A stretch of 61,577 nucleotides of DNA from Legionella drancourtii LLAP12 (GTDB lineage: Bacteria; Pseudomonadota; Gammaproteobacteria; Legionellales; Legionellaceae): the NCBI RefSeq assembly GCF_000162755.2, contig NZ_JH413833.1, forward strand, positions 14,014-75,590. Reading direction: 5' to 3'. Below, piece after piece: positions 1 to 52,704 of the stretch; position 1 is the first letter of the stretch, and each line of letters opens with the position of its first letter. The notes beneath the pieces were generated by a model, which saw nothing but the letters and a program-made list of their open reading frames with translations, was not told where the DNA came from and did not search any database. The translations under genes and the position numbers were made by a program.

Positions 1-72
1 AATCAGCATCATATTCAGAATCAGCATCATATTCAGAATCAGCATCATGTTCAGAATCAGCATCATGTTCAC
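1..72 (-). repeat. 18-bp tandem repeat encoding an acidic hexapeptide
   Basis: Four contiguous 18-bp units, AATCAGCATCATATTCAG with one T/G variant position, are visible and the array probably continues off the left edge. Read on the minus strand they encode Asp-Ala-Asp-Ser-Glu-(His/Tyr). The unit is in frame with the gene, so copy number can change without breaking it. Confidence 0.9.
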
Positions 73-7670: not shown

Positions 7671-8669
7671 TAAGATCCCTTGTGTTGGTATTGATGTATC
7701 GCCTGTCTTTGTTGCAGGTAAGTTTCAGAAAATTGATGGGTACCATCACCTTTAGCAACAAAATATAAATAATTAGACAATTGTGGATGCGATGCAGCAT
7801 CCAACGCTTCTTTACTCACCATGGCAATAGGCGTTGGAGGTAAACCTCGATAGCGATAGGAGTTATATGGCGAATCAACCTGCATATCATTATGGGATAA
7901 CTTGCCAGTATACGCCGCTCCTAAGCCATAAATAACTGTAGGATCCATCTGTAACGGCAATTTTTTTATTAATACGATTAACCATAACCCCCGAAATAAG
8001 CTGACGCTCTTGAGGCACTGCTGTTTCTTTTTCAATAATTGATGCCGCTGTGAGTAATTCATACGGATTTTTATAGGGTAAATTGGGCGCTCTATTGGCC
8101 CATACTGTATTTAAATAACTTATCAACTTACGATGAGCATGTTCCAATAGGCTTTTACTACTGCTACCACCTTGATATTGATAGGTGTCCGCTAAAACCA
8201 AACCTTCTGCATTAGAATGATTTTCCTGAATTAAAGACCAATCGCTCGGGTGATAATCTAGGTAAGATGCCTTTGCCAGATCTTGCGCTATTTTCTGCTG
8301 AGTTGTACCGGCAATAATGGTGAAGTTTTGTGTTAACACATCTCCAGAGACAACTCGGTAGAGCAATTGTATTGCTGTCTCACCGGGTTTAATTTGATAC
8401 ACGCCCGCTTTTAAGCGCTGTGACAGACCGGTAACACGAATAATCATGAGTAGTGGTCGTTGGTAATGAATTAAATTCTTCTCTTTTAACGTTTGTACAA
8501 ATTGCGATGCCGATGTAGTACGATCAAGGTTGATAATAACTGGAAGCTCTTGTTTCGCTAAAAGCGGTTTGGCTACTAAACTGTAAAAATTCCAAAATAA
8601 ATAAGAAAAAGACACAAAAAACAGTATTACTCCATAAAGTATCAGTTTTTTATGTCTTATAGAGGCCAT
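7670..8669 (-). pseudogene. mltG: Endolytic transglycosylase MltG, frameshifted
   Basis: MltG is a membrane-anchored endolytic murein transglycosylase that ends glycan strands. The N-terminal anchor (residues 11-30) and the LysM-like and YceG domains run through the catalytic ASIIEKET block, but the first frame stops at 7890 with an unrelated tail after VMVNRINKK. The rest of the family sequence, LPLQMDPTVIYGLGAAYTG through SPYNSYRYRGLPPTPIA, lies in another frame that ends at 7670. The shift falls in an A7 run (7961-7967, T on the plus strand); with six As the frame is continuous and the protein would be about 332 residues. Either the gene is inactivated or the base call is wrong. All motifs on both sides are intact, which argues for a very recent event or an error. 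Confidence 0.9.
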
Positions 8670-17929: not shown

Positions 17930-20236
17930 ATGTACTCAGAAACCTATGCTCATTTAAAATCCAAGTACAACTATGATAATTTTGAGGTAATTGCCGAAGC
18001 AATTGAAAAACACTTTAGCGACATATTTAAGCTTGCTGTACTGGATGATATAGTCAATAGCACAGGGAGTTATGTTCGGCTCTTTGATGCATGTATGAAA
18101 CAATTAACTGATTTGTATACTGTTGAAGAAGTTGTTAGCAAACTTTACGAGACACTCCAAACTCCCCCCATTAAAAATAAGCTTGAAAAAGAATATATTT
18201 TCATCCCACCAATGGGACTGCAAGGATCAAGACAAATCAATTACTTAGAAAAATTAGCAACCAATGATGCTAAAATAGCAGAGCCACTCTCATTTATTGA
18301 TATGATGCGTGTAGCCAATGGATTACGCCACCTAAAGAAAAGTAAAGATGTTGTTGGTGTAGTCCATTTAAATAATTTAATTGTTCCCAATGCACTGGAT
18401 ATCGAGAAGCTAAAACAAAAAGATGCGCTCATCGTTAATTTTAATCGTGATTTGAAGGGTACTCCTAAATGGGGTGTAATTAATTTGCTCGATAAAACTT
18501 CCCCTTTAATCTATTGCGAAACCCCATTAACCGAACGTGAAAAATCAGAAATACAAAACGCTTTAGGAATTCAACTGACAAAGGACCAATTTAAGGGAGC
18601 AACCGCCAATAGCCTACCCTCAACAGGATATATGGCAATAGCCTGGTTGGATCATAATGTTACCAAAGCCTGGAACTTCGACGTCAGCACTGATTTTACG
18701 GCGTTGTTTAAAGAATTTATTACCGGATATTTTGGTGGAGATAACCCGGGTTTATCTTATGAATTTATTGCAAATGAGCGCACTAAATATTGTACTCATG
18801 CCTTCCAAGAAGTATTAAAAATCACAGATTTTCATGAAAAAAGTTATGGTTCAGATTATACTCAACCAGGTTTTGGCCTATCACGTACCACATGGATTGC
18901 TGGTTTAGGAAAGGCTGATAATGAATCATTTCGTCCAGGAGATCTTGGCAAAGCAGTCCAAATCATTGGTAATGCTAACTGGTCCTATTCGCAAATGGAA
19001 CCGCTACTCCATCAATATAACCGAACTTTACCGCCAGGGTTTGCAGCAACCTTGTCAAGCCATCAGCTCGCTCCGGGTTTCCCCTTGGTACTACAAACTG
19101 CTACCTCTGTTACCTTGAATATCCCAGAAAATTTAGATACAGATGCATTAGAAGATACGCACCACATTGAATGCGCAAAAACAAATACCTCTTCAGGATG
19201 GCTTAATGCTCTCTGGAACAAACTTGGAATGCAACAAGGAGGCACTAAAACGCAATTCTACGCAACAATGATCGTATTAGGTCTTGTGCGCTCTAAAGCA
19301 AAAAAACAAGTACTGTCCCTTAATGTGCCAAGTAACTATCAACTAAATAAAGAAGAGCAGCAATTTGTCATTCAAACGCTATTAGAAAACCCCTATGTTA
19401 CTGAGTTTAAAATTAATGAAACACTCAGTGCCACAAACAAATCATTAGAACAAATTAAGCATGCGTTAACGCCAACATTTGCACGTAACCGTTGGTTAGC
19501 TGCAAATGGCTATCGTCCTCCATTGATTGATAATTATTGGCGTCAAGCAGCGCGATACTGGCTGGTTCATTTAAATCAGGTATCCGATCTATTGCAACCC
19601 AAAAGGGAACACGAATTATTTAAAAATTGTGTTCGGGAAATGGGGCTTCAAGGTTTAAAAGAAGTTTTAGAATTATTAAATGATGATGTTGAACGCGAAT
19701 TTTTTGAAATGCTCTATGGTAAGGATAAACCTGCTTTTTATGCTGCTTGTCTACCAGAGCAATACCCGGAATATTTAGACACCCTATTAAACCACTTACA
19801 GATCGAAGCTTATTTTCCATTTGGTGAATTAGGAATCTCATATCAACCTGGAAATAATCAAAAATTAGTTTCTGTAATTAATGAATTCAACAAACTCAAA
19901 CAATTTGAACGAGTTTCTTTCACTGATTGCTTAAAAAGAACCAGTTATTGTAAAGAATTTCTCCAAACATTAATTGAAGAAGCGCAGAAACAAAAATGGG
20001 TTGGCTTAATTGTTATCCCAGAATTAGAAGAGCAATCCAATACCAGTGAATCACGCCGTGAATTACGAGTGATGTATACCTTCTTAAACGATATCATTTT
20101 GCACAACCGCCATCTGAAAGCAGCAGAAGAAGAAATCAGAAGTATCAATGAGGCCACTGATTTTACGATGCCCGGAACTGGGGACGATGAAATCAAAATT
20201 AAAAACAAAGGATCAACAAGCCGATGCAGCTGCTAG
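17930..20236 (+). CDS. Giant SecA-motor locus 1, N-terminal module
   Basis: A 768-residue open frame with no signal peptide or membrane segment. It aligns by eye, block by block, with the first ~900 residues of the protein at 33589: LNNLIVPNALDIEKLKQKDALIVNF against FTPGTAPYGAEELDKLSKAQ...LIVNI; ARNRWLAANGY against ARNRFLSTVLD; and MGLQGLKEVLELL against MGIKGLDELFQHL. After NDIILHNRHLKAAEEE the frame drifts into a short tail (KGSTSRCSC) and stops, while the next frame carries the expected continuation. It is therefore probably the N-terminal part of one ~3,600-residue protein, cut by a one-base shift near 20201-20206. I recognise no catalytic domain in this module. A cytoplasmic or type IV-exported role is possible; no function is assigned. 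Confidence 0.85.
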   Translation: MYSETYAHLKSKYNYDNFEVIAEAIEKHFSDIFKLAVLDDIVNSTGSYVRLFDACMKQLTDLYTVEEVVSKLYETLQTPPIKNKLEKEYIFIPPMGLQGSRQINYLEKLATNDAKIAEPLSFIDMMRVANGLRHLKKSKDVVGVVHLNNLIVPNALDIEKLKQKDALIVNFNRDLKGTPKWGVINLLDKTSPLIYCETPLTEREKSEIQNALGIQLTKDQFKGATANSLPSTGYMAIAWLDHNVTKAWNFDVSTDFTALFKEFITGYFGGDNPGLSYEFIANERTKYCTHAFQEVLKITDFHEKSYGSDYTQPGFGLSRTTWIAGLGKADNESFRPGDLGKAVQIIGNANWSYSQMEPLLHQYNRTLPPGFAATLSSHQLAPGFPLVLQTATSVTLNIPENLDTDALEDTHHIECAKTNTSSGWLNALWNKLGMQQGGTKTQFYATMIVLGLVRSKAKKQVLSLNVPSNYQLNKEEQQFVIQTLLENPYVTEFKINETLSATNKSLEQIKHALTPTFARNRWLAANGYRPPLIDNYWRQAARYWLVHLNQVSDLLQPKREHELFKNCVREMGLQGLKEVLELLNDDVEREFFEMLYGKDKPAFYAACLPEQYPEYLDTLLNHLQIEAYFPFGELGISYQPGNNQKLVSVINEFNKLKQFERVSFTDCLKRTSYCKEFLQTLIEEAQKQKWVGLIVIPELEEQSNTSESRRELRVMYTFLNDIILHNRHLKAAEEEIRSINEATDFTMPGTGDDEIKIKNKGSTSRCSC

Positions 20237-23200
20237 TGAAGAAATTGATCATATCATTGAACGTGGTTTAGAAAGCATCAATAAAAATAGTAAATGGCCA
20301 TTAAAGAAAGGCGGTGTAGTCCAATTACAATTGCAACAACAGCAACAAATTGAACAAAACCGTCAAATGCAACAAGAACAACAGAAAGTTGTTATTAATA
20401 TACTTGAAGAAGCGATTGCAGGCGATCTGGTCGATTATGCAAATATTGACAATTTGCTAAATAAATTCCTCAAAGAATTTGAAAAAGAAAATACTGTAGA
20501 GCACAATGCAGCTGCCCTAAGAACACATAATGAATCGTTATTACAGGGCTTTTTCCATACTTGGATTAACGCGAATCCGAATGTTAACGCTACTCATGTT
20601 ATTAGACAAATGACTGTTGAGGCGGCACAAGCTTTACTACGTAAGCATACTCGATTGTCCTCTGGATTAAACCCTGAAAACCTACCTAAAGGATTTTATA
20701 CTCAGCGCTCAAAAGATGGTAATTTAATTTTATGCTATAGCCCTGAGTTATCGTATGTAAATCCTCCTAATGCATTAACCATTGACTTATCGATAAATGT
20801 TCCTAAAAACGAAGCATGGGAAGGTGATTTTCGTCAATTTGATTTAAGTAAATACAGTACATTTACAGCGCAATTCGATGAAGCTGACTGGAAAAATATT
20901 GTTCTTTTTTCCTGCATGCAACCGCCCAAAAGCAGCTACGATAATGAGTATAATCTATTCAAGGATGACAACGGTAACCTAATTGGTAAAGTTGATATTA
21001 CGAGTAGTGCTAATCGTAAAAAAATCATTGATTTCTGGCCGGTATTTTTACAAGTATGGCAATATGGTGGAGCCAAAGGCGTAGAACAGTTTATCGCACA
21101 ACCTAGTACTAGTTTTACTCTTACAGATCATGCTATTAAAAAACTATTATTAAGCAAAGTCCCTTCTATGGAGTTAAGAAAATGGGCTTCTGAACTTGAC
21201 ATGAGTGACAAGTATCTACGTGCATTAGGACAAATCTATTATCGTTATGGCGAATTAGGCCTGACTACATTCCTAAGTAAACTACGCCAGTTTGAAGCCG
21301 TATTAGGAGTAGAATTTTTTGATCATTTTAATGAAAACCTATTAGCCCGCAGTGAAAATTTCAACTGTTTTGTGAATAAAAATTTCATCATGACTCTAGA
21401 TGACATGATGGACAAACTGAAATCTCGCGAAGCAAAAGGAAAGTTAGACGCCTGGAAAAAAGTGATTACCCACCATATGCATGCGGTGGGCTGGGACAAT
21501 ATTGATGCTTTATGGCGTGGATATAGTCATTTTGTCGCCGAGCTAGAACAGCTAGGACTGAAACTTGAAGGTGATGAATTTGATAAGATTAAACCAGAAA
21601 ATATGCTCATCTGCATGGATAGAATACTCAACAGCTTAAATCAAATCCCTGACTATGATATGCAAAAGCAATTTCTTGCCAAGCTTGATCATTTTGATTT
21701 AACTTACGGCGGTGTGCATTATGCGTTACAACATGAAGGCTTCAAGTATTTTGATAGCGAATTGGAATTGCATGATTTTGATTTAGGCTCTCCTACTTAT
21801 ACACCTGATTTAGTATCACTGTATCAATGGACAGGTAGTGACGCAACCTTGAAAATGAAGCGTACGCTCGCCTCAAAAGCACAATTTAGCCAGCAAGCAT
21901 ATCACCTTTTAGTAGAAAAACTAGGTAATGATAAAGTAGAATCAAGACATCAATTGCTATGGTTATTGCATACTCATTATAGTGCAGTAAACATGCCCGC
22001 TATTCTGGAGCAACTTGATCTTGTGGCATCCGATTTTCAAGAGCTCATTGCGCGCCATCTCGATGATGCAATTTACATACGAAATAATAAACGACTTAAT
22101 ATTAGCTTTGATGCACTGCAGGCTTTAGCCTCTGTGATAAGGAAAACGGATGTTTCAAAACTATTAAAAGCCTATCCCAATGGTACGTTTCTTGAGGCGG
22201 TCAGCATTCTATACCAATCTCAGCGTTGGAATGATCAAGAAGTAAATAAAATAATCAATTTATTTAGTGCACACCTACCTAAATCAGCAGATTATCCAGA
22301 TTCCTTTTACCGTGAAGGTTATAAGTTGGCTACGTTATTTGGCATAACTGACCCAACCCAACTCCAAGAATTTTACACTGCAACTAAAGATTTACGGCCA
22401 ATAGTACAAATTGAATTACGACTTTTAATAAATCAATTGCTCTCAGTGGATTATGCAACGACTAACTTAGATGCATTAGTAAATCATGCAAATTGGGACG
22501 CACTCATTCATTGTATTAAAGCGATGAAAAGTGATATGGCGCATACAACGATTCATCGTATTGAACTCATTGATCAATTCGATACCCTAGGCATTCAATT
22601 TAAGTACTCCAAAAGCGGAGAATTCCGCGCCCTTGCGTCAAGCCCAGAAGACAAACCGGCTGAGCTCGGATTCTTTGTGGATCATGAAGATCGCCTCTGG
22701 GAGTTTATGCTGAAACATATAGTTGTCCCAACCGAAGGTGACGCTAAAGAAGCATTGAAACCAATTGTCCGCTTTTTGAAAAAATTGCAATTAAACCGTA
22801 CCTATTTAAATGAGATTGAACCTCTATTGTCTTCTTTAGAAGAAGCACAAGAAGGCCATTATTGGAGTGCAACTTATTTCTACCAATTATTGCGTGCCTT
22901 ACAACCTGAAAACGATCAAGCATTATTCCCCATTTCCCTACTTAAAGTGATCTTACAAGAAGAATCAATCGCACCGAGAAAGATTAATAATGTCGAAAAA
23001 GATTTTCCTGTTGAACTCGCAGAGCCACTGCAAACTATTTTGAAAAATTCCGTGTTTAACCGCCATCAACAAGGAATTCTTTGCCAGATAGCCCTGCGTG
23101 AATACAACTGGCAAGGTACTATTGCGTTGCTAAATCAAATCATGGGCACTTTATCAATCGATGGATATGCAGACAGTAGAACTTATGCTTTAGAAATATT

Positions 23201-26200
23201 AGCAAAAAGTAAAAACTTTTCCGATCTGGAAACACGCTACGAAAATTGCCGATGGTTATTACAACATACACCAACTACAGAAATTGCTCCGCAATGGACA
23301 AAAACAACGGCCTTATGGTTAAAAGCATTAAGTTTACGTAAACAAGAAGAAGATTTATTTAGCAAAATAAAAGCGCAATTTGCAGATAATGGGGGTAAGC
23401 TCTCCTTAGTTTTGCATATTCTAGCCTTCAGTACCTTAAGCCCCGGGTTAAAGGATAGTGAAAGCTATGAGCATGAACTAAATAAAAAAGCAGCTAAGCT
23501 GGTTGACAGCCTAGGCGACATGGAATATAGCGATTTAGTTAAATTAGCTAAAGCCTATCCTCAACAGCCCTCACCTTCGGCTGATGACATTCTGCGTTTA
23601 ATTAAGAAACAGAAAAAAGAAGGCCTCAGTTGGAGCGCAAGTTTTGAAACCTTTGAACGTCAACCATTTACTGAGCCACGAACTGATTATGGATTAGTAG
23701 CCGCTACCCGTGATGCCGATTTACAGCGTATGATTTCTGAGACCAAAGTAAGCGCTGAAGAGGCACGCCAAGGACTATCTATCGAAAAAACAGCGCGACT
23801 TACTTTAATTTTCGGCTACTTAAAACAGCTGGAAAATGGTACTGAACATCTGAAAGGAAGTGAGAAATCTATTTCAACGATGGCTCCTCAAGAATTAGCA
23901 AAAGCATTTCAGACTTTATCCAAAGTATCCCCTCAGGATGATTTAACACGCGCACAAATCTGGGCCATATTGTTTGAAGTTCTAGGACGGACTACCCGTA
24001 AATACCCCCATTTAGCACAACAATTTGCATTAATAGCGAATGACATTGGCGTTGATGCCTCAACTCGTGTTTTACAATTGGCTACAGGTGAAGGTAAAAG
24101 TCACTTCGTAGCTATGCGCGCAGCACGCCATGCAGGCCAGGGAAAAACGGTTGATGTATGTACTGCAAAACGAACGCTTGCAGAGCGTGATCTTGAAGAT
24201 TATCAAAACTTATTCGATTATTTAAATATTAAAACAGCGTATATTCATCCTAAGTCATCGCGCACGGCCTATATGGATGCTCAAGTTCATTACGCTACCT
24301 TAGGTGACTTATCGCTCTTTTTAGATGAACAAAGTTATTCTGGACAGCCGATTGAAATCGACCCAAGCGATCGTGTGGCCTTATTTGACGAATTTGACTT
24401 TATCCGTTTTGAAGAAGGTCGCAAGACTGAATACAACTATGCAAGACCGACTGGTAAAACCCCCAAGCAAATGAATTGGTTTTATCAATCAGTAAATAAT
24501 TTTTATACAACTCACCGTGAAGAATTAAATAAAGAAGGTGAGATTCATATAGAAACATTACGTAAGTTTGTTCAATCACTCAAAGCAGATGTGGGTGAAA
24601 ATGAGGAACGCTATAATTTAATTCGGCCAATGCTGCAAGACCCTCTGCAATTGGTACAATGGTTACAATCAGCATTTGAAGCCCATAATTTAGAATGGGG
24701 TATTAGCTTTACAGTACGCGAAGAAAACATTGAGGTGGGTGATGAATCCTACCCAATGCGAGAAGTTATCCCCTTATCGTCCGATAACCAAAAGATGGTG
24801 GGATCAACCTTCAGCGCAGGTGTACATCAATTGTTAGCAGTGCGTTTAAATACTGAAGCACGATTGGAAAAAAACCCCCAAAATTTCCATATTCATCCAG
24901 AAAGTAACATCATTAGTTCTCAAGTTGCTGCACAGCGAATGAAAAAATTATGGGAACGTTGGGAAGGTTTTTCTGGTACGATTTCCGCAGCACAAGCAGC
25001 TACATTATATCGCGAACAGGGTACGCAAGTATTACACGTACCGACCAACCAACGTGACTTACGTTTATGGCATAAACCTAATTTCCACAAGACTGACGAC
25101 ACACGTCTGACAAGTATTATCAAACAGATAAAGACCTGTATCGATAAAAAACAATCCATGTTGTTCTCTTGTAAAAATGACAAACAGGTGCAAGAACTAC
25201 AAGAGAAGCTAAGTAAAAAATTTAGTGCACAAGAGTTAGCACAACATTTTATTTTCTACACGAATGAAGAACACCGTACTGCAGCTGAAGTCTTAGCAGA
25301 CAAAACCGTAAAAGAAGACTGGCATGGCGGTAAAAAACAACATGGAGTTGGTCTTGTCGCCTCAGGATTTGGTCGAGGTGATAACGTAGGCGTGGAAGTC
25401 GTCTTCTTATTCGATGTAAATGATACCAACGACAAACTGCAAAAAGGTGGTCGAACCGCCCGAAATGGTGCTGAGGGTGAAGTATTCCAATTTTATTTAG
25501 AAGATGATTTAGTCCAGGAAGAACAACGCCTATGGGATTTATTGGACGTGCTTGAACCAGATACGGTAAATCATTTAAAGGATCAATTACTCCATGTTCT
25601 AGGTGACAGTGATAACGAACGTTGCTTTGAGCGCGTTATGCTCTTACGTGAATATGTGTTTAGCTTACAAAATGCAGCAAATCAAGGCTACCATAATGCG
25701 CTTGCTCAATATTCATCATGGGGCATGAAAACATTAGGTAAAATTGAAGATCCTGCCACTCGCCAAGCATTAACCGCTAATTTTAGTCTTCAGCTAAAAA
25801 GATTAGATAAATTATGGATCAATATATCCAGTAAAGATAAATTAACTGTAGATGAAAAAATCGCAGAAATTGAAGAGCAAATTACGGGACTATCAGCCGA
25901 TTTCACCACGCGTTATGAAGAAATCGAATTAACGGTTACTCCATTTGATTTGGATACGCATCAACCAACAGAAATTCAGATGGTTGTTCCGGAGGCACCT
26001 CACAAGCCATCCGCTGAAGATCGCGCAGTTGCCTCTATTTGCAGTGTAATGGCTCGTTTACCCGATTTAACACTGCGGGATAGTCATATGGCCAGCATAC
26101 CGCAATTACTTGGCGCTGTGGCAATAAATCCTCAGAAACTAAAGCAATTTGCAATTCGGATTGCTTCATGTACAGCAACCTCTGAATTCCTCCATAAGTT

Positions 26201-28739
26201 GCATCTTGCCGCTATCCAGGCAACGAAACCATCAAAAGCCTGGGAAACGCTTGAATCTGCTGCCGCTCCAGAAATTGAAGGACATGAATTATTTGATGGT
26301 GTTTCTGATACGGTGAGAACTCGCTGTGCTCTTGCCTTAGATGCGTTGGTGCCTTCATTACAAGAACAAACCATTCAGTCACTAAGTGCTCCAACCCTGC
26401 TATCCAAAGAAACACGGATAAATGAAATCTTACCTCTTCTAGAGTATTTAGGTAAATTCTCTGTAAAACAGCAGAATAAATGGGGGGCTGATTTTATTAT
26501 GCAAATGCATGCATTACCGAATCAAATGACTCCCGAATTACTGTCATGGTGCCTTGATGCAAGCCAACCAATGAGTTGTTCAGACTTCACTGTTTTTGGC
26601 ACCATTATGCGCCTAACGTCAGAAAAAAATGGACCTTTGGAAAAAGAGGAGCTTACTGAGCTATATATGCAGTTGGCGCGAGCTACCAAAGCAGAGCCCG
26701 AGCAACGCGTTCGCATGCTTACCAAATGGGAATCATGGACCCAGTACATCCCCAATGATCAATATAAGAAATTTTTAACCGCTTTTTGCCATTCAATGGA
26801 ACATTTTAAAGAAGGTGAAAACTGGGATACATTTACAACCTTAGTTAGAAAAACGCAAGACTGGATCAATAAGGGTGGACAGGCGAATTATGTTCCTGAG
26901 CTATTAAACGTATGGAATGGCCTAGCTAATCGCGTAAAAGATTTACCCGAAATGAATGAGTATTTGCAATGGACCATGAGGCTTGGTGGCAAAGCTTGGT
27001 TTAAAATGATTAATGCAGCAATGCATCTATCACCTACAGAGGCATTCCAGACCCATCTTCATCAATTTAAAGAGTATTGGAATTCACTGGAAGCAACTTC
27101 ATTGAAAAAACAAGCGAAAATCAATAAATTCCATGAATGTTGCGATAAAATCAACCTCTTTTATCAAACGATTAATGAGCTCAGCCAAGAGCAACAAACA
27201 CTAATGAAGAATCAATTCTTGGCATTAGATAATGAAAAATTTACACTCATGATTGATTTCATTGGGGAGTTGACGACCAGCCAGCCACAAGCTTTAGCTG
27301 AAATGTTATCTTATCTCAATGATTCCAGCATAACTTTATCGCGTAGTAAATTACTCAGCAAAGTTATAATCCAGGCAACCGATTATCATAAGCGTAACCC
27401 GCAATTTGCCCATGAGCAATTAATGGAAGCGATTCAACGCTTTAAAGAGTGCGATGAAAATACATTAGAACTCTTACTGCAACTAATGGATCAAAATAAA
27501 GAAACCGCGCAAACAGTTGAACCCTTATTTGATAATACAGTCTTCCACTTGGATAAACATGTGCCTGCTGCGGCAAGAAAAAATGTAGAAGACATAATTC
27601 AATTATTTTACCAAGCGGCAAAAGACACTAATGGCTATCTGAACGCAATGGCGTTAAAACCTTCTATACTTGCTCTATTTGACTTTACCAAGGATTCTAA
27701 AGAGCGTCAAAATCAGCGTCTGATTTTTATGCACTTACTGCAACAACAAGTCTTTGTTAAGGATAAGTTATCTTCTGAAAAGCAAGATTATAAATGGAGC
27801 TACGAACGCAATGAGCAGCTTCTTCAACATGGGCTTAACTGTTATATTCAGCATACGCAGCATGTCTTAGCGGCAAAACCAGCTAAAGCAAATGTTCATC
27901 AAAAACGTGATTTAACGGTGAAACAGCAACATGAATTATTAAAACTGACTGATGAACTAGCAATCATTGGCAAACCATCTCTCCGCATTGATCCTCTGAA
28001 ACAAGAACAAAATGCGGCCATTCTATCTCTAGGATTAAACAATTTGCTAAAAAATTACCAGTCCACTTGGTTTAAATCTAAAGAGCGAGTGGAGCAAGCA
28101 TCTGAATTACAAGCTTCATTAAAGATCGAAGACGCCCCTAGATATCAGGATGTATTACGTGCGATTAGCGAAGCAAAGCTTAAAGCAATTCAAAGCGATG
28201 AAGCACAAAATCAGGTCCGTTGGTTTAAAATGAATAGCAGCGGTCAAAGTCGTTACTTTAATACGTTAAATCAAATGCAAGATTTGGTTTTACGTCAGTG
28301 GTCACAAGATATTAAAGAACTTCATGGCCTTACAGCGTATAAAACCCATAATCAACAAGAGTTTGTGCAGTTAGTTCACTGTTTCCAAAAGGCGGCTGCT
28401 AAATATTATGACGAAAATTACCCGACCCCTGATAATCCACGATATCATGAAAAACGACAAAAATTAGGTCGCTTCTTTGGGGGGGGTAAAAATCGAACTG
28501 CTCTAGAAATTTTACTTACAGTTTTAGGGCAATTCGAGGGAGAAATACTAAGTGATGGTCTTTCTGAAGAAGGGGTAGAAAATCTGATAAATGGATTAAA
28601 TCAATATGTATCGACACTTCCTGGCCATTTGGTGACGCTAGCGAATGAGATATTAATCAGAGGTGATTCATTACAACTTAATCTGAGTGAACAAGCTGAT
28701 CATGAAGAGATAAGATCTACGTTTAAAGGCGACCTTTAA
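20187..28739 (+). CDS. Giant SecA-like DEAD-motor protein 1
   Basis: About 2,850 residues (the frame is open from 20118; the ATG at 20187 follows GGGGA, an ATG at 20148 is an alternative). Residue numbers below count from 20148. A Q-rich linker (about 60-90) is followed by an LPKGFY...GDFRQF module (about 180-250). After helical sequence comes a SecA-type motor: P-loop ATGEGKS (1312-1318), HYATLGD, Walker B DEFD (1414-1417), the GVHQLLAVRLN motif matching the SecA GLHQAVEAKE junction, FSGT, VPTNQ, ASGFGRGDNV and GGRTARNGAEG (about 1767-1777). The remaining ~1,000 residues are helical with no recognised domain. No SecA C-terminal zinc motif and no signal peptide. It is not the housekeeping SecA (about 900 residues). 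Either an ATP-driven effector or an unknown cytoplasmic machine; function not assigned. Confidence 0.88.
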   Translation: MKSKLKTKDQQADAAASEEIDHIIERGLESINKNSKWPLKKGGVVQLQLQQQQQIEQNRQMQQEQQKVVINILEEAIAGDLVDYANIDNLLNKFLKEFEKENTVEHNAAALRTHNESLLQGFFHTWINANPNVNATHVIRQMTVEAAQALLRKHTRLSSGLNPENLPKGFYTQRSKDGNLILCYSPELSYVNPPNALTIDLSINVPKNEAWEGDFRQFDLSKYSTFTAQFDEADWKNIVLFSCMQPPKSSYDNEYNLFKDDNGNLIGKVDITSSANRKKIIDFWPVFLQVWQYGGAKGVEQFIAQPSTSFTLTDHAIKKLLLSKVPSMELRKWASELDMSDKYLRALGQIYYRYGELGLTTFLSKLRQFEAVLGVEFFDHFNENLLARSENFNCFVNKNFIMTLDDMMDKLKSREAKGKLDAWKKVITHHMHAVGWDNIDALWRGYSHFVAELEQLGLKLEGDEFDKIKPENMLICMDRILNSLNQIPDYDMQKQFLAKLDHFDLTYGGVHYALQHEGFKYFDSELELHDFDLGSPTYTPDLVSLYQWTGSDATLKMKRTLASKAQFSQQAYHLLVEKLGNDKVESRHQLLWLLHTHYSAVNMPAILEQLDLVASDFQELIARHLDDAIYIRNNKRLNISFDALQALASVIRKTDVSKLLKAYPNGTFLEAVSILYQSQRWNDQEVNKIINLFSAHLPKSADYPDSFYREGYKLATLFGITDPTQLQEFYTATKDLRPIVQIELRLLINQLLSVDYATTNLDALVNHANWDALIHCIKAMKSDMAHTTIHRIELIDQFDTLGIQFKYSKSGEFRALASSPEDKPAELGFFVDHEDRLWEFMLKHIVVPTEGDAKEALKPIVRFLKKLQLNRTYLNEIEPLLSSLEEAQEGHYWSATYFYQLLRALQPENDQALFPISLLKVILQEESIAPRKINNVEKDFPVELAEPLQTILKNSVFNRHQQGILCQIALREYNWQGTIALLNQIMGTLSIDGYADSRTYALEILAKSKNFSDLETRYENCRWLLQHTPTTEIAPQWTKTTALWLKALSLRKQEEDLFSKIKAQFADNGGKLSLVLHILAFSTLSPGLKDSESYEHELNKKAAKLVDSLGDMEYSDLVKLAKAYPQQPSPSADDILRLIKKQKKEGLSWSASFETFERQPFTEPRTDYGLVAATRDADLQRMISETKVSAEEARQGLSIEKTARLTLIFGYLKQLENGTEHLKGSEKSISTMAPQELAKAFQTLSKVSPQDDLTRAQIWAILFEVLGRTTRKYPHLAQQFALIANDIGVDASTRVLQLATGEGKSHFVAMRAARHAGQGKTVDVCTAKRTLAERDLEDYQNLFDYLNIKTAYIHPKSSRTAYMDAQVHYATLGDLSLFLDEQSYSGQPIEIDPSDRVALFDEFDFIRFEEGRKTEYNYARPTGKTPKQMNWFYQSVNNFYTTHREELNKEGEIHIETLRKFVQSLKADVGENEERYNLIRPMLQDPLQLVQWLQSAFEAHNLEWGISFTVREENIEVGDESYPMREVIPLSSDNQKMVGSTFSAGVHQLLAVRLNTEARLEKNPQNFHIHPESNIISSQVAAQRMKKLWERWEGFSGTISAAQAATLYREQGTQVLHVPTNQRDLRLWHKPNFHKTDDTRLTSIIKQIKTCIDKKQSMLFSCKNDKQVQELQEKLSKKFSAQELAQHFIFYTNEEHRTAAEVLADKTVKEDWHGGKKQHGVGLVASGFGRGDNVGVEVVFLFDVNDTNDKLQKGGRTARNGAEGEVFQFYLEDDLVQEEQRLWDLLDVLEPDTVNHLKDQLLHVLGDSDNERCFERVMLLREYVFSLQNAANQGYHNALAQYSSWGMKTLGKIEDPATRQALTANFSLQLKRLDKLWINISSKDKLTVDEKIAEIEEQITGLSADFTTRYEEIELTVTPFDLDTHQPTEIQMVVPEAPHKPSAEDRAVASICSVMARLPDLTLRDSHMASIPQLLGAVAINPQKLKQFAIRIASCTATSEFLHKLHLAAIQATKPSKAWETLESAAAPEIEGHELFDGVSDTVRTRCALALDALVPSLQEQTIQSLSAPTLLSKETRINEILPLLEYLGKFSVKQQNKWGADFIMQMHALPNQMTPELLSWCLDASQPMSCSDFTVFGTIMRLTSEKNGPLEKEELTELYMQLARATKAEPEQRVRMLTKWESWTQYIPNDQYKKFLTAFCHSMEHFKEGENWDTFTTLVRKTQDWINKGGQANYVPELLNVWNGLANRVKDLPEMNEYLQWTMRLGGKAWFKMINAAMHLSPTEAFQTHLHQFKEYWNSLEATSLKKQAKINKFHECCDKINLFYQTINELSQEQQTLMKNQFLALDNEKFTLMIDFIGELTTSQPQALAEMLSYLNDSSITLSRSKLLSKVIIQATDYHKRNPQFAHEQLMEAIQRFKECDENTLELLLQLMDQNKETAQTVEPLFDNTVFHLDKHVPAAARKNVEDIIQLFYQAAKDTNGYLNAMALKPSILALFDFTKDSKERQNQRLIFMHLLQQQVFVKDKLSSEKQDYKWSYERNEQLLQHGLNCYIQHTQHVLAAKPAKANVHQKRDLTVKQQHELLKLTDELAIIGKPSLRIDPLKQEQNAAILSLGLNNLLKNYQSTWFKSKERVEQASELQASLKIEDAPRYQDVLRAISEAKLKAIQSDEAQNQVRWFKMNSSGQSRYFNTLNQMQDLVLRQWSQDIKELHGLTAYKTHNQQEFVQLVHCFQKAAAKYYDENYPTPDNPRYHEKRQKLGRFFGGGKNRTALEILLTVLGQFEGEILSDGLSEEGVENLINGLNQYVSTLPGHLVTLANEILIRGDSLQLNLSEQADHEEIRSTFKGDL
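20201..20206 (+). other. Frame break in giant locus 1 at an AAAAAC tract
   Basis: In frame one the sequence reads ATT AAA AAC AAA GGA and stops 27 bases on. Without one A it reads ATT AAA ACA AAG GAT CAA, which enters the long downstream frame at KTKDQQADAAASEE. The paralogue at 33589 is uninterrupted across this position, which supports a break here rather than two natural genes. Confidence 0.6.
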
Positions 28740-33588: not shown

Positions 33589-36500
33589 ATGTATCAAAAA
33601 TTAGTAGAGCATTTACAAAATAACTTATTAGAAAATTATAAAGCAAGAATACTCTCTACATGGATGAATGAAAAAAGTGATGTAATTGATAGCGAATGCG
33701 ATGCAGAAATAACAAGAATAAGAACCGAATGGGCGCGCAATAACCAGTGTCTGGTCCCCAAAAAAAATCACACCCTAATCACTGTCGATGGTGGTTATCA
33801 AGTAGATGAGCAAGAATATAACAATCTGTCAATTGATTATTATGGGATTCGTGACTCCATTGATAATAAATACAAAACACAATTTATTAACGACCATTGG
33901 AATTCAAAATACAATGCATTACAGAACCGCTTTGAAGAACAACTAAAAAAGCTCGAACATGAAAAAATTATTGAGCAATTTTTAGCACGACATTCCTGGC
34001 TGCAAGAAGAACTTAACTCCGCTATGGAGTTAAGCTATGCAACGCCTATTGCCTACGAATTTTTATTTACATTCACACAAAACCAGCTCGACGAACTCGA
34101 ATCGCCACATAATTCAAAACCATGGTCATGGGAAACAATAGAGGAAATTCAATCTGCTGCGGCAAAATGGCCACCACTAAATAAAGCTAAACTAGCACTT
34201 GAAATAGAAGGTTTTCCCTATAAAAAAATCGCTCAGACGTACTATGCGAGAAATCCCTCTCTGCGTAGTGCAGTTGAGGCTGTTCGTAACGTTCAATTTA
34301 TGCTAAGAAATACGGGAAGATTTATTAATTATGTCCCTAGACGTATTGATATATTGCGTTATTTAGCAAAAAACTACGCATCCCATACTCAAGCTGAATT
34401 AGCCGGTGGTATTTTTACCCCAGGCACAGCGCCCTATGGTGCGGAAGAATTAGATAAATTATCGAAAGCACAATTAACACATCTAAATACCCTAATCGTT
34501 AATATCGGTAAGGAGACTGAACCTGTTTGGATTAGCTTATCGAAAACCAGTGCCTCTTCTGCAGATTGGGAAGCCTATATCCCTGAGTCATTGGATGGTA
34601 ATTCCATGCTTGCCCTTGCTGAAGCCAAATTATCTTCATTTATTCAACAAGGAAATAAAGTCACATTTAAAACTGTCGACTATAAAGATAATGCCCAGCA
34701 AAATAATCTTCAAGAAGCAAATGATTTAGCCATATGGCATGCTGTACTTTTAGGTCGCGTTGTACCATGGCAACACGAGGATCATGCAAAGCGCCCGCCT
34801 CTTAGCCAATACCGAAACACCATTCCTGTACCCCTCTTTCTCGAATTAGCTCACAAATCATTCCAGCCTCCTGGTTATGGTAAGGGAAATCTAGATGAAG
34901 TTGATCAAGCATTTTCACGAAGAACGCCCTTTTCCAATGCCAGCCTCGAAGAAGAACTTGGTTACCTTAAAGTTCGTGAGTATCTTTTAAATGACGCTTA
35001 CTTTTATACAGAGCAAGCACGAGAAACCAAGCTCATGACGGCTTTTGATCAGCAACAAATTATCTTGTCTTCATCAACAAAAGGAGCGCTGCCTGATCAA
35101 CTTAAGCTCATTAACCAGGCAAAAGAATCACTGTTAAAACATGCTTTATTCGTTATTTACCATAATGAAAATATAACAAAGCTGGTCATGCCCGCCTTAC
35201 CTAGTGCTGGAATTTATAATCAAGATTTACCGCTTGAACAATTATTTAACCTCAATGCCTCTCTTTTAACCGTGCAACCATCTCATTTACTCCCCTTAAA
35301 AGAAGATGACAATTTCCTGTCTCTGGCCATGCAGTGTTCCGCGCGTAATCGATTTTTAAGTACCGTTTTAGACTCATCATCCTGGAATGGAATGAGTGAA
35401 CTCTCCAAACGCGCCAAACTTTGGAGTACTGCGGGACGTGAGATGGTACATTTTTATAGAAATCAGAATAAATACGTTGAATTGGATTTCATTAATGAAT
35501 ACCAAAAGCTGAATGCTCAATGGCGCACGACATTTTTTGATCATTCGCAAAAACCAAACGATCCTAAATCGCAATCCCTATGGGCTTTGGCGCAAATAGC
35601 ACAAATGGGCATCAAAGGCCTGGATGAGCTATTTCAACATTTAAACCTTAGTTACATTAATGCTTGGGATAATACCTTTAAAGAGCCAGCACCTAATTTA
35701 CCAGCGGTTTTTGATTTAGTAGGAAGCCTTAATAGTGATCCGGTAGCCTATACCAAGCATTTAAAAAATAAAATACAAGCGCTTGATAGCAATAACTGCA
35801 GCCCCATATTTAAATCATTATCGTTTATTCTTCCTCCTTCTATAACCGCAGTACACAATGACCTGATTGATATCTTTGCACTCATAAATCGACAAAAAAT
35901 ACGTCTTAGTGATGCAGTAGATGAAATTACTTTATATAATCTGAAAATTGCAGATTATCAAGAAGCTAAGAAATTCCTCGAACATATTGAGCAACTAGCT
36001 CAAGACCATTTTGCGCCATTACAAATTTTAATTCATATTCCTGATTGGGATCGCCAAGCATTTTCCAATAGTCAAGATTGTGAACTCAAAGCAAAATATA
36101 AAACGATTCAGAATCTGATTCTGGAGAATCAACGCCAAGCTAAATTTGCAACATTTACAGAAAACACGAAGAACATTCATTTACTTGCCAAAGGCGAAGT
36201 AAAACCTGAGCTTATCCTTGAAGAACATGCAGCGAGGAAACCACAACCATGGTCTGGTGAGGATGTAACGTACCCTTTGACCTCGCAAACACCAGGACTC
36301 CAGCAACAACTCCAACAAGCCGTGGAACAAGAATACATGGTGGAAGAGGAACAAGAGCAAGAACAAGAGCAAGAACAAGAGCAAAAAATTGAAGAATACA
36401 TTAGTGATGAAAGTTTACTCATTACCCGCGAAACCATTGACACCATAGCAAACTGTACTGCGCTCTGGGACGCAGTTCCTATGCACATGAAACAATTCTC

Positions 36501-36801
36501 AGGTTGGGAGCAAAAAAACCTACGCCAATTATTTTCCCTTTGGGTAGGTAGTGATGTTGATGCAGCGCATGTCATAAAAAAAATCGAACCTGGTGCAGTA
36601 CAAAAAATAATGGAACAAGCATCCTCTTTCCGCCTAGGGATATCGCGAGATAATTTACCTGCAGGCTTTTATTTAGCCTATTCACGCAAGGATAGAGGCA
36701 TTATTCTTTGTTACGATAAAAAACGCGAAAAATTGGATTTAAAGACACGAACTGAACAAATAAAAAGAAAAACGAAATCCCTTTACCGTGCAGTTTTATG
36801 A
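33589..36801 (+). CDS. Giant SecA-motor locus 2, N-terminal module
   Basis: A 1,070-residue open frame without signal peptide or membrane segments. A charged, coiled-coil-prone N-terminus (residues 1-130) has no counterpart in locus 1. From about residue 240 it aligns with the 768-residue protein at 17930. An E/Q-rich linker at about 919-932 sits where locus 1 has its Q-rich linker. It then continues through the module around LPAGFYLAYSRKDRGIILCY (about 1023-1042), which in locus 1 belongs to the downstream frame. It ends in a run of Lys/Arg (KRKTKSLYRAVL), with a stop just before the homologous GDFRQF motif. This is best read as the N-terminal part of one ~3,940-residue protein. Function unknown. 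Confidence 0.85.
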   Translation: MYQKLVEHLQNNLLENYKARILSTWMNEKSDVIDSECDAEITRIRTEWARNNQCLVPKKNHTLITVDGGYQVDEQEYNNLSIDYYGIRDSIDNKYKTQFINDHWNSKYNALQNRFEEQLKKLEHEKIIEQFLARHSWLQEELNSAMELSYATPIAYEFLFTFTQNQLDELESPHNSKPWSWETIEEIQSAAAKWPPLNKAKLALEIEGFPYKKIAQTYYARNPSLRSAVEAVRNVQFMLRNTGRFINYVPRRIDILRYLAKNYASHTQAELAGGIFTPGTAPYGAEELDKLSKAQLTHLNTLIVNIGKETEPVWISLSKTSASSADWEAYIPESLDGNSMLALAEAKLSSFIQQGNKVTFKTVDYKDNAQQNNLQEANDLAIWHAVLLGRVVPWQHEDHAKRPPLSQYRNTIPVPLFLELAHKSFQPPGYGKGNLDEVDQAFSRRTPFSNASLEEELGYLKVREYLLNDAYFYTEQARETKLMTAFDQQQIILSSSTKGALPDQLKLINQAKESLLKHALFVIYHNENITKLVMPALPSAGIYNQDLPLEQLFNLNASLLTVQPSHLLPLKEDDNFLSLAMQCSARNRFLSTVLDSSSWNGMSELSKRAKLWSTAGREMVHFYRNQNKYVELDFINEYQKLNAQWRTTFFDHSQKPNDPKSQSLWALAQIAQMGIKGLDELFQHLNLSYINAWDNTFKEPAPNLPAVFDLVGSLNSDPVAYTKHLKNKIQALDSNNCSPIFKSLSFILPPSITAVHNDLIDIFALINRQKIRLSDAVDEITLYNLKIADYQEAKKFLEHIEQLAQDHFAPLQILIHIPDWDRQAFSNSQDCELKAKYKTIQNLILENQRQAKFATFTENTKNIHLLAKGEVKPELILEEHAARKPQPWSGEDVTYPLTSQTPGLQQQLQQAVEQEYMVEEEQEQEQEQEQEQKIEEYISDESLLITRETIDTIANCTALWDAVPMHMKQFSGWEQKNLRQLFSLWVGSDVDAAHVIKKIEPGAVQKIMEQASSFRLGISRDNLPAGFYLAYSRKDRGIILCYDKKREKLDLKTRTEQIKRKTKSLYRAVL
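36349..36384 (+). repeat. 12-bp tandem repeat encoding a Glu-Gln linker
   Basis: Three perfect copies of GAACAAGAGCAA encode an EQEQ run inside the N-terminal module of giant locus 2. The same spot in the paralogue is a glutamine-rich stretch, so a flexible linker is conserved by composition rather than sequence. Confidence 0.85.
36768..36773 (+). other. Frame break in giant locus 2 at an AAAAAC tract
   Basis: The upstream frame reads AGA AAA ACG AAA TCC and stops at 36799. Without one A it reads AGA AAA CGA AAT CCC TTT, giving RKRNPFTVQFYEP...GDFRQF, which aligns with NPPNALTIDL...GDFRQF of locus 1. The break is thus inside a conserved module. Confidence 0.65.
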
Positions 36802-39800
36802 GCCGATGAAGCCGCAAATCTTTAGAGGCGATTTTAGACAGTTCACCCCTGTAGCTTCGCTAATAACGACACAAAAGCTCATGTGGAAATATGTGGCTAC
36901 CGATGATCAAGATCAACAGCGAATAAACAATGCGCTGGGTACACTTGAGCAATTAGCATTAACCACTGCTCCAGAAAACGCATTAACTCAAATGCAAGAG
37001 TTTACACTCACTGGCCAAACCGGGGAGCAACCTGGAACTTTGGAAGATTGTCGCTCCGCGTTAAAAATTTGGGCCCAAGGAAAATTAAACGCACCTGTCG
37101 ACGTATTGGATGCTTTATTTGATAATTCAAGCCAAACTGTCTTAACCGCGGATAATCTTTTCGCCTTGGGGCAAATATTTTATGCGCATGAAGTAAGTCA
37201 TTTAGAAATGGCGTCTAAAAATGCTTCCGATAGCTTTTTTGTGCTCGCCCAACAAATACATCAAGCATTTGGCCCACAACATTTTGCAACATGGAAACGC
37301 TATTTCATCGACCCATCGCAGAATTTAAATGAGTGCCTGACTAAAGAAGAGCTAGATACCGTAGCGCTAAGTATTGTGACCTTAAAAGATGATAAGCCAC
37401 TCCACAATATTTGGTGGGCTTTAATTAGCGCTCATGGAGCATCTACCGGTCTTACCCGTTATAGCCCTTTATGGCGCAGTTTTCAAAAATTACTAACTTA
37501 TACAGAAAAGCATGGTCTGATACTCAATGAAACAAGCATGCTCGAGTATTTAAACAATGCAACTGATTTTCAAGCACAAGTCTTCCTCGACCGCTTATAC
37601 AATGTCTTACGCAATAGCGAAAAAGAACTATTAAAACAAAACATCCAACAAGACATTCTAAATAATATTCATCATATTGATTGGCGTCATAATGGATTTT
37701 ATTACGCATCTCATTACGAAAAATATCCTTATTGGTATGTATCACTTGAGTTAACTGAGTTTAAAGCACACGATAAGCAGGTTAATCCAAGTTATTTATT
37801 AAGTTTGGATAATACTGCACAAAAGAATCCGCATGACCTCGTTATTAGCAGTTTGCGTTATCTTAGTCAAAGAATGCGTATATTGACCACGGATTTTAAC
37901 TGGCTACAAGAAGTAATTAATCGAAATTTAGTAGAAACAGGTCTGTTGGCTACCCAAAAGGGACCTTTAGCATTGCGTCTATTCGTCGTTTGTTTATCTC
38001 AAGGATTGGATAGAACTTCACATATTGACGAAGAGTTAATCGTTAATCAAATTAATGCCTTACAATCTATAGATACGGATATCCTGACTTGGTTGAATAA
38101 ACAAGTACTTTTGGATGGAGAACTTATTCCTGGCTCATGGCAGGTAAAATTTGAACATCTAGCGACGTTAGCAAAGACAATTCAGACCTCCACACTAAAA
38201 AATAATATACTGAGCTTAAGTAATTTTGAAGCCAGAGAATTTATCAACAACTGCGGGCGTGCTTTACAGTGTTATTCAAGCAAACATGTTGCAGACACTT
38301 ATTTTTCTAAAACATCCTACCCATGGCTTAATCAAAATGATCCTGCACAATCTGCTTTAAGTGAATTATTCAATACTCTAGAACGAGATCATTTACAGTC
38401 TGACAGCACCTTATTAAGTGCATACCCTTGGCTGCTCCTTGAAAAAGATAAAGTAAGTCAAAGATGGGGTGATCCGCTTTCTGCTGCTGGCTACAGGAGT
38501 TATTCGTTCTATGAGCAACAACGTATATTAAACAAACAACTAAGATCCATTGATTTTGCTAAATCATCGCATTTACCTTCATACCAGGAGCTGGTAACGC
38601 TTAGAGAGCAAATGCGAGTTACCTATGACGCCTCAGCACGCAAGCAATTTATTAGCGAGCAACTTGAAAAAGGATGCAGCATTACCAATCAAGATGCGGC
38701 CTACCGTTTATTGAATCCAGAAGAACAAAAAACGGCTCATGAATACCTAAGCAAGTATCTAAAAATTAATTTTAAATCGCAAAATATTAAATTATGTGAA
38801 CGCTTATTTACTGAATGCATTGCCGTGAGCGTTGAAAGCGCCGCAGCACATAAGCGCTTGGAAGCATTCTTAAAATTACTAGTAAGCATTGATAATAAGC
38901 CTCATTTCAACGATTTAGGGCTGGTCTTAGGTTTGCTCATAGAGCAATCCCAAAAAGGAGTACAAAAATACTACTCCTTAGAGCAACTGACCAGTTATCT
39001 GGATTGTTTAATTGATAGAGAACATGCGGCCAACGATCACTACCCAATCCATATTTTAACCACTGTTTTACACCAATATGACAGCACAACAAATCAACAT
39101 TCATCATTATTAAATAGCAACTTAAACGAATTAAGATCAGAAATTTATCCAATACAACTCCAGAAAAATATTGCGGATATCGTGCGCTCCGAATTACCGA
39201 GCCAATACAAACCTATACTCACTAAATTTGCCCTGCATCATCCTGAGGACAGTCTTTTTGTCAATACGGCAAGAAGAACACTCCAATCGCTGCATCAAGA
39301 AAATGCAAGTCCACAATGGATAAAAGGCATTGGTAATTTTATCAGCGCCATTACCGATCATGAACTTCCTTTGCTCTACTCAAAACGCACAAGAATTTTA
39401 AGCCAGATTTCTCTTTCTTTTGAAAGAGCCACTAGAGAGTACAGCGGTTTATCATCACAAGATAACGAGCATTTGCACAAGCTCTGGCAAGACAGCCAAC
39501 TGAGACTCATTGAAATTTATCAACAAAAAGACAGCAAGATTAATGGCGATGCAATTGATTTCTTTGCTCTTCAAGAACGGCCTAAAGACGCATATATTCG
39601 CATGATCGTCTTACAAGCTCTTGAACTTGAGAAATTAAACCTTACCGAAAAACTAGTCGATCTAGAGCATCTTAAGTCCCAACTGCAACGCCTTGATGAA
39701 AAAGAGTTAAGTGCTTTAGCAGTCTACTGCCATTCATTGCCGGTGCCTTCAATCGAATTATTTAATAAACTGACTAATCCGCAAGAATTTACCAGTACAG

Positions 39801-42800
39801 AACAATTAATTCACCGATTCGAAACAATAGAACAAGCAATCAAAGATAAAGAGAAAAATACATCAAAAAGACATTACAGCATTACAGCGCGTGATAATGC
39901 GGATTTAATCCGTGTATTTCAGGGCTTAAAACAAAAAGGCAAAGGCGTTATTGCTGAAGACCAACAAAAAAAATTACTCGAGCTACTTTATTACGTTAAT
40001 GCGTTCAGCCAGGTTAATTATTTGGGCACGATCTCTTTTAGCAATTTACAAGCACTACTTCTAGAGCAACGTAACGTGCTTCTAGATAATGCCGCAACTC
40101 CAGATGAAAAAAGTATGGCCTCTGCGCGCATGCTGGCGTGCATGCGTGAAGTGCTGCTACGTAAAACCGGTAAATGGGTCAATCACACGCAAATGCTGGA
40201 TCTTATTTATGCGGCGCAGCATAACAGTGAAAGCCTACTCCACCAGGTGCGTACAGGGCAGGGAAAAAGTATTATTTCTCTGATGCGTGTTTCCTATCTC
40301 GCATTGAACGGCCTCGTAGTCGACATTTTCAGTTCGAAAGACAGCTTATCCAAACGCGACCAAGAAGAATTCAGTCACGTTTTAGATGCAATCGGCATCC
40401 GTAATTCATACATTACCCCTAGTTCACCTGCAGATAAATATCAAACGAATGACAGCCCAAAAAATCTTGGCGCCGTTAATTTTTGTACTATTGGTAATGC
40501 CAGCCTCTTCCAATCAACACAAATTTGGCAACACATTAAAAACATTAATTTAGACCCTAAATTACGTGTTGCTTTTGTAGACGAATGTGACTTCGTACTT
40601 AAATTTGAAGACACCCAGTTTAACTATTCTGCCAATAATGGTGCCGAATCTATTTATAATTTTGATGAATGGGTTTATCGCATTGCGTATAAATATTTCA
40701 TAGAAAATAAAAACAGTTTCCCTCAGGATGAACAAGAGGTATTGCGAATTTCGCGCAACGTCCACCTAAAAGCACTGTGTGAATTGCTACAACAAGAAGC
40801 TAAAAACAGCCCTAAACAATCTGATTTTATCGAAAAATACATTGTTCCGGCTGCTGATGGTGATCTCAAGGCCGTTGCAAAGCGGGATAATATATTAAAG
40901 AAACTCCTTGTTGCCGCTAACTCCGCACAAAATTTAAAGGAAGACGTTCATTTCTGTATACGCCCGGATCAACAAATAGCAGGACAAAGAACTGTCATTA
41001 ACACACGTTTTGCCAAGGTACTTATTGGTAACCAAATTAAGCATGGTTCAACCTATAGTGAGTTGGTACATCAATTCTTGCACGTACGTCTCAATGAGGA
41101 AGCCATTGCTAAAGGCCAAGCACCTAACTTTTTTGTCGAACCAGACAGCCAGGTCGCCCTCTCAAGTAATGCCAAGTATGACCTGAAAAAACACTATCAA
41201 AAACTGGAAGGCTGCACCGGTACAGCCGGTAACAAAGAAGACTTAAAACTGTATGAAGAAATTTTTGGGATTAAACATGTAATTAAATTACCATCACATG
41301 AAGAGTTGCGCAGTAAATTCTTGGGCGTTATTTATGCTAAGGATAAAAAACAACAAATTAATGCCCTTGTTGAGCACCTACTGCAATTTAATGATCGCCC
41401 CATTCTGATGACCTGTGAAGATGATATTGCCGTGAAACAAATGGCTACTTTAGTTAAACAGGAACTGGAACAACGCGGAGTATTTAATCCTGATAATTTT
41501 ATTATCGATACAAATGACAGTGGTTTAGCAGAAAGTGAGGTGGTACCACGCGCAGGGGCAGCAGGAAAAATCACCATCAGCTCAAGGATGGGGCGCGGAA
41601 CAGACATCAAGCCAGAAACCGAAGAAGGACTGATGGTCTTACGTACCTACCCTACACTTCCGCAAATAGTCAAACAAGAAACTGGACGTCAAGGAAGAAA
41701 TGGAGCCAAAGGAACCAGTATTGATATCATTAATTACAGTGATGTATTAAAAGAGCATAAAAAATATACGAAAAAAGATTCTCCTCAGCAAATACGCTTA
41801 GCAGAAATAATGCATGAGGAAGAACAGCATCTGGCGCAAAAACTCCAGAAACATATCAATATTGGCTCGGTTAAATGGGAATGGCTAGCCGATTCCGAAG
41901 AAATGAAAGAAAAATATTTAATCACACGCTCAGTACAACAATTCAAATATGAGCTTAAAAAGAAAAATGAACTTTACCTGCGCCGTAAAGAGTTCCTGAT
42001 TGCTTCTTTGTCTGGCGATGTAGCAGACGTTATCAAACGTAATTTTGATAACACGGCATTCCCCTTAACACAATTTAAGGATGATTGGCTTGAATGCAAT
42101 CAAAAAATTGAAGCCTTATGGAACATCCGTCTGGCAGGAAAAGCAGGCGATAGTGAAGAAGTTTATGTCGAGTTTATCAAGCATGTAGCCATGACATGGA
42201 ACATTTTTTGTCTACGTTACAATGATTTAAATTCAGCGTTACTTGCAGATCCTGCCAAAGCCTTAGGAACAAATATCGAGAGACTGGGCAACAAAGTCAA
42301 TGATGAAATCAAAAAAAATATTGAGCAGTACATTCGGATTTTAACTCTGCAAAAAGAACAAAATTTACTCCTAAGCGAGGAAGCAGGTAAACAACTTAGG
42401 ACATTAAGAAATATAATCATTAAAGAAGTACTCTCAAAATGTGATCCTGATGAAAATATAGATGCAGATCGTGAACTCTTCGAAAGAGCAAGCAATTTAC
42501 GCGACTTAATCACCGATGTGCTGCATGATGATAAAGAGCAAGTATCTTTGGCCGCCAAGGCGCCCACGGCTCAAAAGCCGACAACCTCTACTCATGGTCC
42601 TGAATTTAAGTCCGTTGTTTCCTTCTACCAAGAATGGATAAAAGGCGCTGAGCGCTATTATTTTGCTGCAGGCATACCCGAAAAAACGCGCCAAGCGATT
42701 TATGGAAAATCACCATCTCATCTGCCACTTTTCTTCCAATCAATCTATGAAACAAGTCTTATGAAGAATAAAGAAGCAACAAAACAGTTATTTGATGCAT

Positions 42801-52625: not shown

Positions 52626-52704
52626 TCAATATATACTCAACACACCCAGAATAACAGCAAGTTATAGGCTACAATTAATACAAATAATAGATAGTGAGTT
52701 TAAA

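Follow-up and report, generated by a model that had tools for sequence, protein, structure and literature searches.

A giant Legionella drancourtii protein built around a SecA-type motor, with a candidate role as a host-directed effector

Results

The central part of giant 1 is a SecA-type motor

Within a 61,577-nucleotide (nt) stretch of Legionella drancourtii LLAP12 DNA (the window), one of the two largest loci, giant 1, encodes a protein of about 3,600 residues whose central part is a SecA-type motor. Sequence comparisons indicate that giant 1 belongs to a large family of SecA-derived motors in bacteria living in eukaryotic cells, and we propose below that it may act on host proteins as an effector. 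The locus is read as two overlapping open reading frames (ORFs), the short and the long ORF, which were searched separately without merging the frames. Its features, with lengths in amino acids (aa), are:

17930..20236, plus strand: N-terminal piece of giant 1, a 768-aa ORF (the short ORF) with homology up to residue 749
20148..28739, plus strand: C-terminal piece, a 2,863-aa ORF (the long ORF) with homology from residue 30, laid out as Q-rich linker, LPxGF module, helical region, SecA motor and C-terminal region
20148..20236, plus strand: overlap of the two open frames, 89 nt, where the frame shifts relative to intact relatives
20424..20963, plus strand: LPxGF module, long-ORF residues 93-272, from profile search
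23820..25559, plus strand: SecA-type motor, long-ORF residues 1225-1804
25611..25922, plus strand: long helix and helical hairpin after the motor, long-ORF residues 1822-1925, from the secondary structure of the model

An earlier note on this DNA had described ordered SecA ATPase motifs in the central part of a protein that is not of SecA-like size, and both observations hold: TGEGKS (long-ORF residue 1313), DEFDF (1414), VHQLL (1559) and GRTARNGA (1768) occur in that sequence order, and the two pieces measure 768 and 2,863 aa, against 800-900 aa for SecA. Walker A, Walker B and the motif VI arginines are intact. The profile search that the note had suggested matched SecA_DEAD to long-ORF residues 1225-1614 (E = 2.9e-16, 60 bits, cut-off 24.6), and solved SecA structures match residues 1226-1804 (E = 2.7e-8). 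Structure prediction agrees, in that the best structural matches in the PDB to the predicted motor model are SecA and SecA2, with 16-20% identity in structural alignments; the outcome that the note had named as refuting, a fold other than the two-RecA core of SecA, thus did not arise. SecA itself apart, no match to a functionally characterised family was found. NCBIfam SecA models, whose cut-offs lie at 725-1,085 bits, score no higher than 66 bits (the best one has a cut-off of 814).

SecA_PP_bind was not reported for giant 1 in the sequence profile search, and was matched in two relatives (L103, over the cut-off, and L110, under it). A clamp-like (preprotein cross-linking) part is likely present in the giant 1 model, because 608 of its residues align with 5eul and 387 with the motor-only structure 3bxz. 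The predicted long helix and hairpin that follow the motor appear to sit where SecA has its helical scaffold and two-helix finger, and the hairpin, in which Trp 1890 is conserved (W in 29 of 32 rows), may be the equivalent of the finger. Giant 1 is under purifying selection, with a ratio of nonsynonymous to synonymous substitution rates (dN/dS) of 0.12. Three of 32 motors (L036, L042 and L044) have lost catalytic residues in Walker A or Walker B and are, judging by their sequences, probably dead or altered paralogues.

Giant 1 is a single gene split once

Both ORFs align, in order, to complementary parts of intact relatives, which argues that giant 1 is a single gene split once and bears out the earlier reading of about 3,600 residues across one frame break. 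Against a closed 3,601-aa gene on a contig of Legionella sp. MAG BO158 (L017), short-ORF residues 1-749 align with residues 1-746 (54% identity) and long-ORF residues 30-2860 with residues 767-3600 (61% identity). A profile scan gathered 43 relatives, 31 of which are closed ORFs of 2,062-3,876 aa; of the rest, ten are cut off by the end of their contig and two have lengths of just 1,552 and 1,301 aa. No stop codon interrupts the matched region in any of the 43, which speaks against a chance open frame. Of the eleven relatives that align to the short ORF, eight have a closed gene of 3,590-3,793 aa: those from L017, L. londiniensis, L. yabuuchiae, L. impletisoli, L. fairfieldensis, L. anisa and two other metagenome-assembled genomes.

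A paralogue in the window, giant 2, is likewise split in two frames, and a third break falls in mltG (YceG; 7670-8669, minus strand), whose two overlapping frames match the YceG profile at 3-187 and 185-274. With three breaks in a single window, and with a cell-wall gene among those affected, errors of the draft assembly are likely, and a better explanation than decay.

The head of giant 1 resembles a protease

The large helical scaffold that the earlier note saw around the motor proved an incomplete description, as the protein appears to carry a protease-like fold in its N-terminal part and, after it, leucine-rich repeats. Structural matches to the model of the N-terminal piece (pLDDT 89.3, pTM 0.87) lend moderate support to a CE-clan (Ulp/DUB-type) fold at about residues 77-280 of the short ORF, and a region resembling leucine-rich repeats is predicted after it, at about residues 430-745. 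In 10 of 10 rows of the giant 1 clade the catalytic His is replaced by K or Q and the catalytic Cys by S or T, the catalytic columns being taken from the sequence pattern rather than from a residue-by-residue structural alignment. Given these substitutions, the head in this clade is expected to have no protease activity.

The LPxGF module lies about 1,000 residues ahead of the motor. Its profile matches 33 of 65 proteins or pieces at E = 1e-3, a count that includes the clade-1 members used to build it, and the module also occurs in L102, a giant from Orientia's order, and in L107, from outside the window's order. Other modules accompany the motor elsewhere, each seen in a single distant member. 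In the 4,414-aa L102 giant, a USP domain (L102:1069-2868, E = 9.7e-24) shares a frame with the motor, as do ankyrin repeats in L104 (E = 6.6e-127); a RickCE-like protease lies beside the motor in L110 (E = 2.6e-4, 21.7 bits, under the 27-bit cut-off), its HW, D and C-G boxes looking intact when the sequence is read by eye. Read in the same way, the L102 USP domain has its Cys box after its His box, as though circularly permuted. The L110 giant (L110:547-6828) comes from an IMG/VR contig that is labelled viral and is possibly bacterial. Hydrophobic segments occur near the C-terminus of some short-type giants, and are absent from the long piece of giant 1 and from its eight intact orthologues.

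The family is widespread in Legionella's order

For family scans we used a 43-row core profile, which gives 333-648 bits for the long frames found in Orientia chuto and in eight genomes of Legionella, and 196-214 bits for ordinary SecA (best E = 2e-63); matches in one genome of the Amoebophilaceae and one deltaproteobacterial genome are lower (at most 193 bits) and partial. Within Legionella's order, 111 of 143 genomes have a match at E = 1e-75, with one to eight per genome; frame lengths there are known among the matches listed. Within Orientia's order, apparently the Rickettsiales, 20 of 216 genomes match at E = 1e-70; the frame reaches 1,000 aa or more in 14 of them and is SecA-sized in six. 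A draw of Gammaproteobacteria, in which up to four candidates per genome were scored, gave matches in 12 of 369 genomes at E = 1e-70, four of the 12 from the window's order. One of the 12 matches (G614, 854 aa) is SecA-sized and comes from a genome without DotD; it was set aside by size alone.

In a tree of 57 motors, six SecA rows stand apart from the other 51 with support of 100/100. Giant 1 belongs to a clade of 12 rows (100/100) and giant 2 to one of eight rows (100/99), and two SecA-sized proteins fall on the giants' side. By its kinship, the window's organism is presumably host-associated.

Giants co-occur with Dot/Icm genes

In the gammaproteobacterial draw, with the same genome handles, DotD was found in 48 of 369 genomes (47 over the cut-off). 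Each of the 11 genomes in which a giant frame was found also has DotD, and none of the 321 DotD-negative genomes has a giant, so that giants are confined to DotD-bearing genomes in this one draw. Fisher tests of the association give 6e-11, 2e-7 without the window's order, and 2e-6 when that order is left out and G614 is put with the giants, all of these p values being too small owing to relatedness among the genomes. DotB was found in eight of eight tested, seven over the cut-off.

In one genome (G512; L111:4385-17164), a 2,369-aa giant lies directly upstream of dotD, ending 75 base pairs before it; downstream of dotD come a frame without an NCBIfam name and dotB, with dotA (one model just below its cut-off, another above) and icmV on the other strand. 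Linkage of a giant to dotD was seen in none of the other 117 loci. A C-terminal glutamate-rich signal is mildly enriched in 42 giants relative to 160 control ORFs, in what is a weak test.

Giant 2 and the neighbouring genes

Giant 2 has the same plan as giant 1, and the two motors share 25% identity (E = 1e-39). Its pieces are:

33589..36801, plus strand: N-terminal piece of giant 2, a 1,070-aa ORF
36788..45424, plus strand: C-terminal piece of giant 2, a 2,878-aa ORF with the SecA motor

Its orthologues in L. erythra and L. rubrilucens are 3,861-3,876 aa long. On two contigs (L008:13187-18784 and L010:15171-20768) a 1,865-aa frame follows the giant 2 orthologue on the same strand.

Several window neighbours are shared by L017 only, among the 26 loci compared with window proteins: rlmH (93% identity), hutU (90%), a POT transporter (82%), hutH (82%) and dnaQ (81%), names that we assigned by reading the sequences. 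In this nearest relative (L017:2139-21033) the giant 1 orthologue has the POT transporter on one side and hutU/hutH/dnaQ on the other, the site that giant 2 occupies in the window. Flanking frames, judged by length, are common to close species. Both giants of L. adelaidensis are annotated 'hypothetical protein', and their annotated neighbours are varied housekeeping and hypothetical genes; with rpsT, murJ and hemA beside the two giants, the replicon named 'Plasmid 9' (L001/L005, NZ_LR134418.1) resembles a piece of chromosome.

Elsewhere in the window, a 588-aa protein (57123-58889) with a LegC3 N-terminal coiled-coil domain (E = 2e-15) and HGQTTHGHS-type repeats is a likely effector. Large ORFs at 58900-61575 (minus strand), 2-1726 (minus strand) and 52585-53535 (plus strand) have no Pfam match at E = 0.01 and are possibly more effectors. 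A short frame at 51949-52320 (minus strand), in a gene-poor gap, is presumably a transposase remnant.

Discussion

Taken at even odds, the giants would be host-directed type IVB effectors that pull on polypeptides and are recruited through ubiquitin- or protein-binding heads. After delivery to the host, the head and repeats would hold a host protein, perhaps one modified by ubiquitin or a ubiquitin-like protein (Ubl); the clamp of the motor would grip an unstructured stretch of that protein and then pull, which could unfold it, strip it from a complex or push it through a membrane. The mechanics would be those of SecA, and the purpose that of a p97/Cdc48-type segregase, with no ring ATPase. 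More tentatively, and with distinctly less confidence, we suggest that the giants could represent a class of motor not known before, injected into the host to pull on proteins: a SecA ATPase turned effector, which its (pseudo)ubiquitin-protease heads and its repeats would direct to host proteins that are marked with ubiquitin or bound to membranes, and which would mechanically unfold, extract or translocate them as a bacterial counterpart of p97. Known effectors mostly act as enzymes that modify host proteins, and an injected motor that moves them would, if the proposal is true, be a tool of a different kind, in a family present, often in several copies per genome, throughout much of Legionella's order. 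The dead CE-clan, RickCE-like and USP heads, the ankyrin repeats and the degenerate motors form a natural series that could teach how a housekeeping translocation motor comes to be re-purposed.

The best rival is an accessory SecA ('SecA3') at work inside the bacterium, where it would supply SecYEG or the Dot/Icm coupling complex with special substrates while its large arms serve as a built-in chaperone. We consider it unlikely: the protease-like head and leucine-rich repeats, like the USP, RickCE-like and ankyrin domains, are modules that face the host; up to eight divergent matches per genome and low conservation beside conserved neighbours are unlike a housekeeping export motor; and the annotated genes around the two L. 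adelaidensis giants include no Sec component (the other loci were compared with window proteins only). That the motor is instead a superfamily 2 nucleic-acid helicase or a defence ATPase mistaken for SecA is highly improbable given the profile and structural matches, even though superfamily 2 motifs are present and Helicase_C is matched in some relatives. PADLOC models gave no matches for three proteins at E = 0.01, a negative that extends to this one library of defence models.

Decay of the window copy into a pseudogene would account for the single frame break in each of giant 1 and giant 2, but the housekeeping gene mltG is broken too, into complementary YceG pieces as expected of a draft assembly error, and giant 1 keeps 2,863 and 768 codons otherwise open, its catalytic residues, a low dN/dS and closed full-length counterparts in eight relatives, so that we rate decay as rather improbable. 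There is a small chance that the gene came from, or is shared with, host protists or invertebrates, where it would have an unrelated housekeeping role. The large secA-domain genes of insects and Daphnia, and matches in Tetrahymena and Polysphondylium, are reported to be related to the Wolbachia and Amoebophilus genes (PMC3639933). The Legionella giants, however, form deep clades of their own and their order has matches in most of its genomes, so any transfer into the lineage would be old.

The giants can be set beside several known systems. Giant 1 shares with SecA and SecA2 the two-RecA motor, including its Walker A, Walker B and motif VI, but it is about 3,600 aa long rather than 800-900 aa, it scores below the SecA equivalog cut-offs, and the helical wing and zinc tail of SecA are not seen on reading the giant 1 model. 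In wBol1_1091 and wBol1_1092 of Wolbachia and Aasi_1144 and Aasi_1610 of Amoebophilus, a SecA domain is likewise embedded in a very long protein, and the bacterium again has eukaryotic cells as its habitat. The two Wolbachia genes measure 4,488 and 11,829 nt (the latter wBol1_1092) and have relatives in insects, Daphnia, Tetrahymena, Polysphondylium and Amoebophilus, with full-length homology of wBol1_1092 to eukaryotic secA-domain proteins (PMC3639933); 'SecA-like helicase-related domains' are listed in Amoebophilus effectors (PMC3482391), and the Amoebophilus SecA-domain proteins were proposed as effectors (PMC3639933; PMC3482391). Giant 1 fits this pattern, its SecA domain lying in a protein longer than 1,400 aa from a bacterium that is, by kinship, probably host-associated. 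In the portions of the two papers that we consulted, no Legionella secA-domain gene is named (Legionella is mentioned once, for another gene) and no protease-like head is described for the Wolbachia and Amoebophilus proteins, which we compared with the giants by description only. The earlier note's class without a family name is therefore uncharacterised rather than new to science, very large SecA-domain proteins of intracellular bacteria having been published (PMC3639933; PMC3482391).

In the literature that we searched, no description of Legionella members was found. We regard the giants as a known but uncharacterised kind of protein, and giant 1 as a variant of it whose head looks like a dead protease. 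With the CE-clan ubiquitin/Ubl proteases of effectors (SseL, XopD, NopD, OtDUB and RickCE) the head shares its predicted fold, whereas the giant 1 clade is without the catalytic His and Cys. The segregase p97/Cdc48 works with ubiquitin adaptors, and the likeness to it would be one of function, in the proposed ubiquitin-linked pulling and unfolding; the giants, which are not an AAA+ ring, would do such work with a SecA motor.
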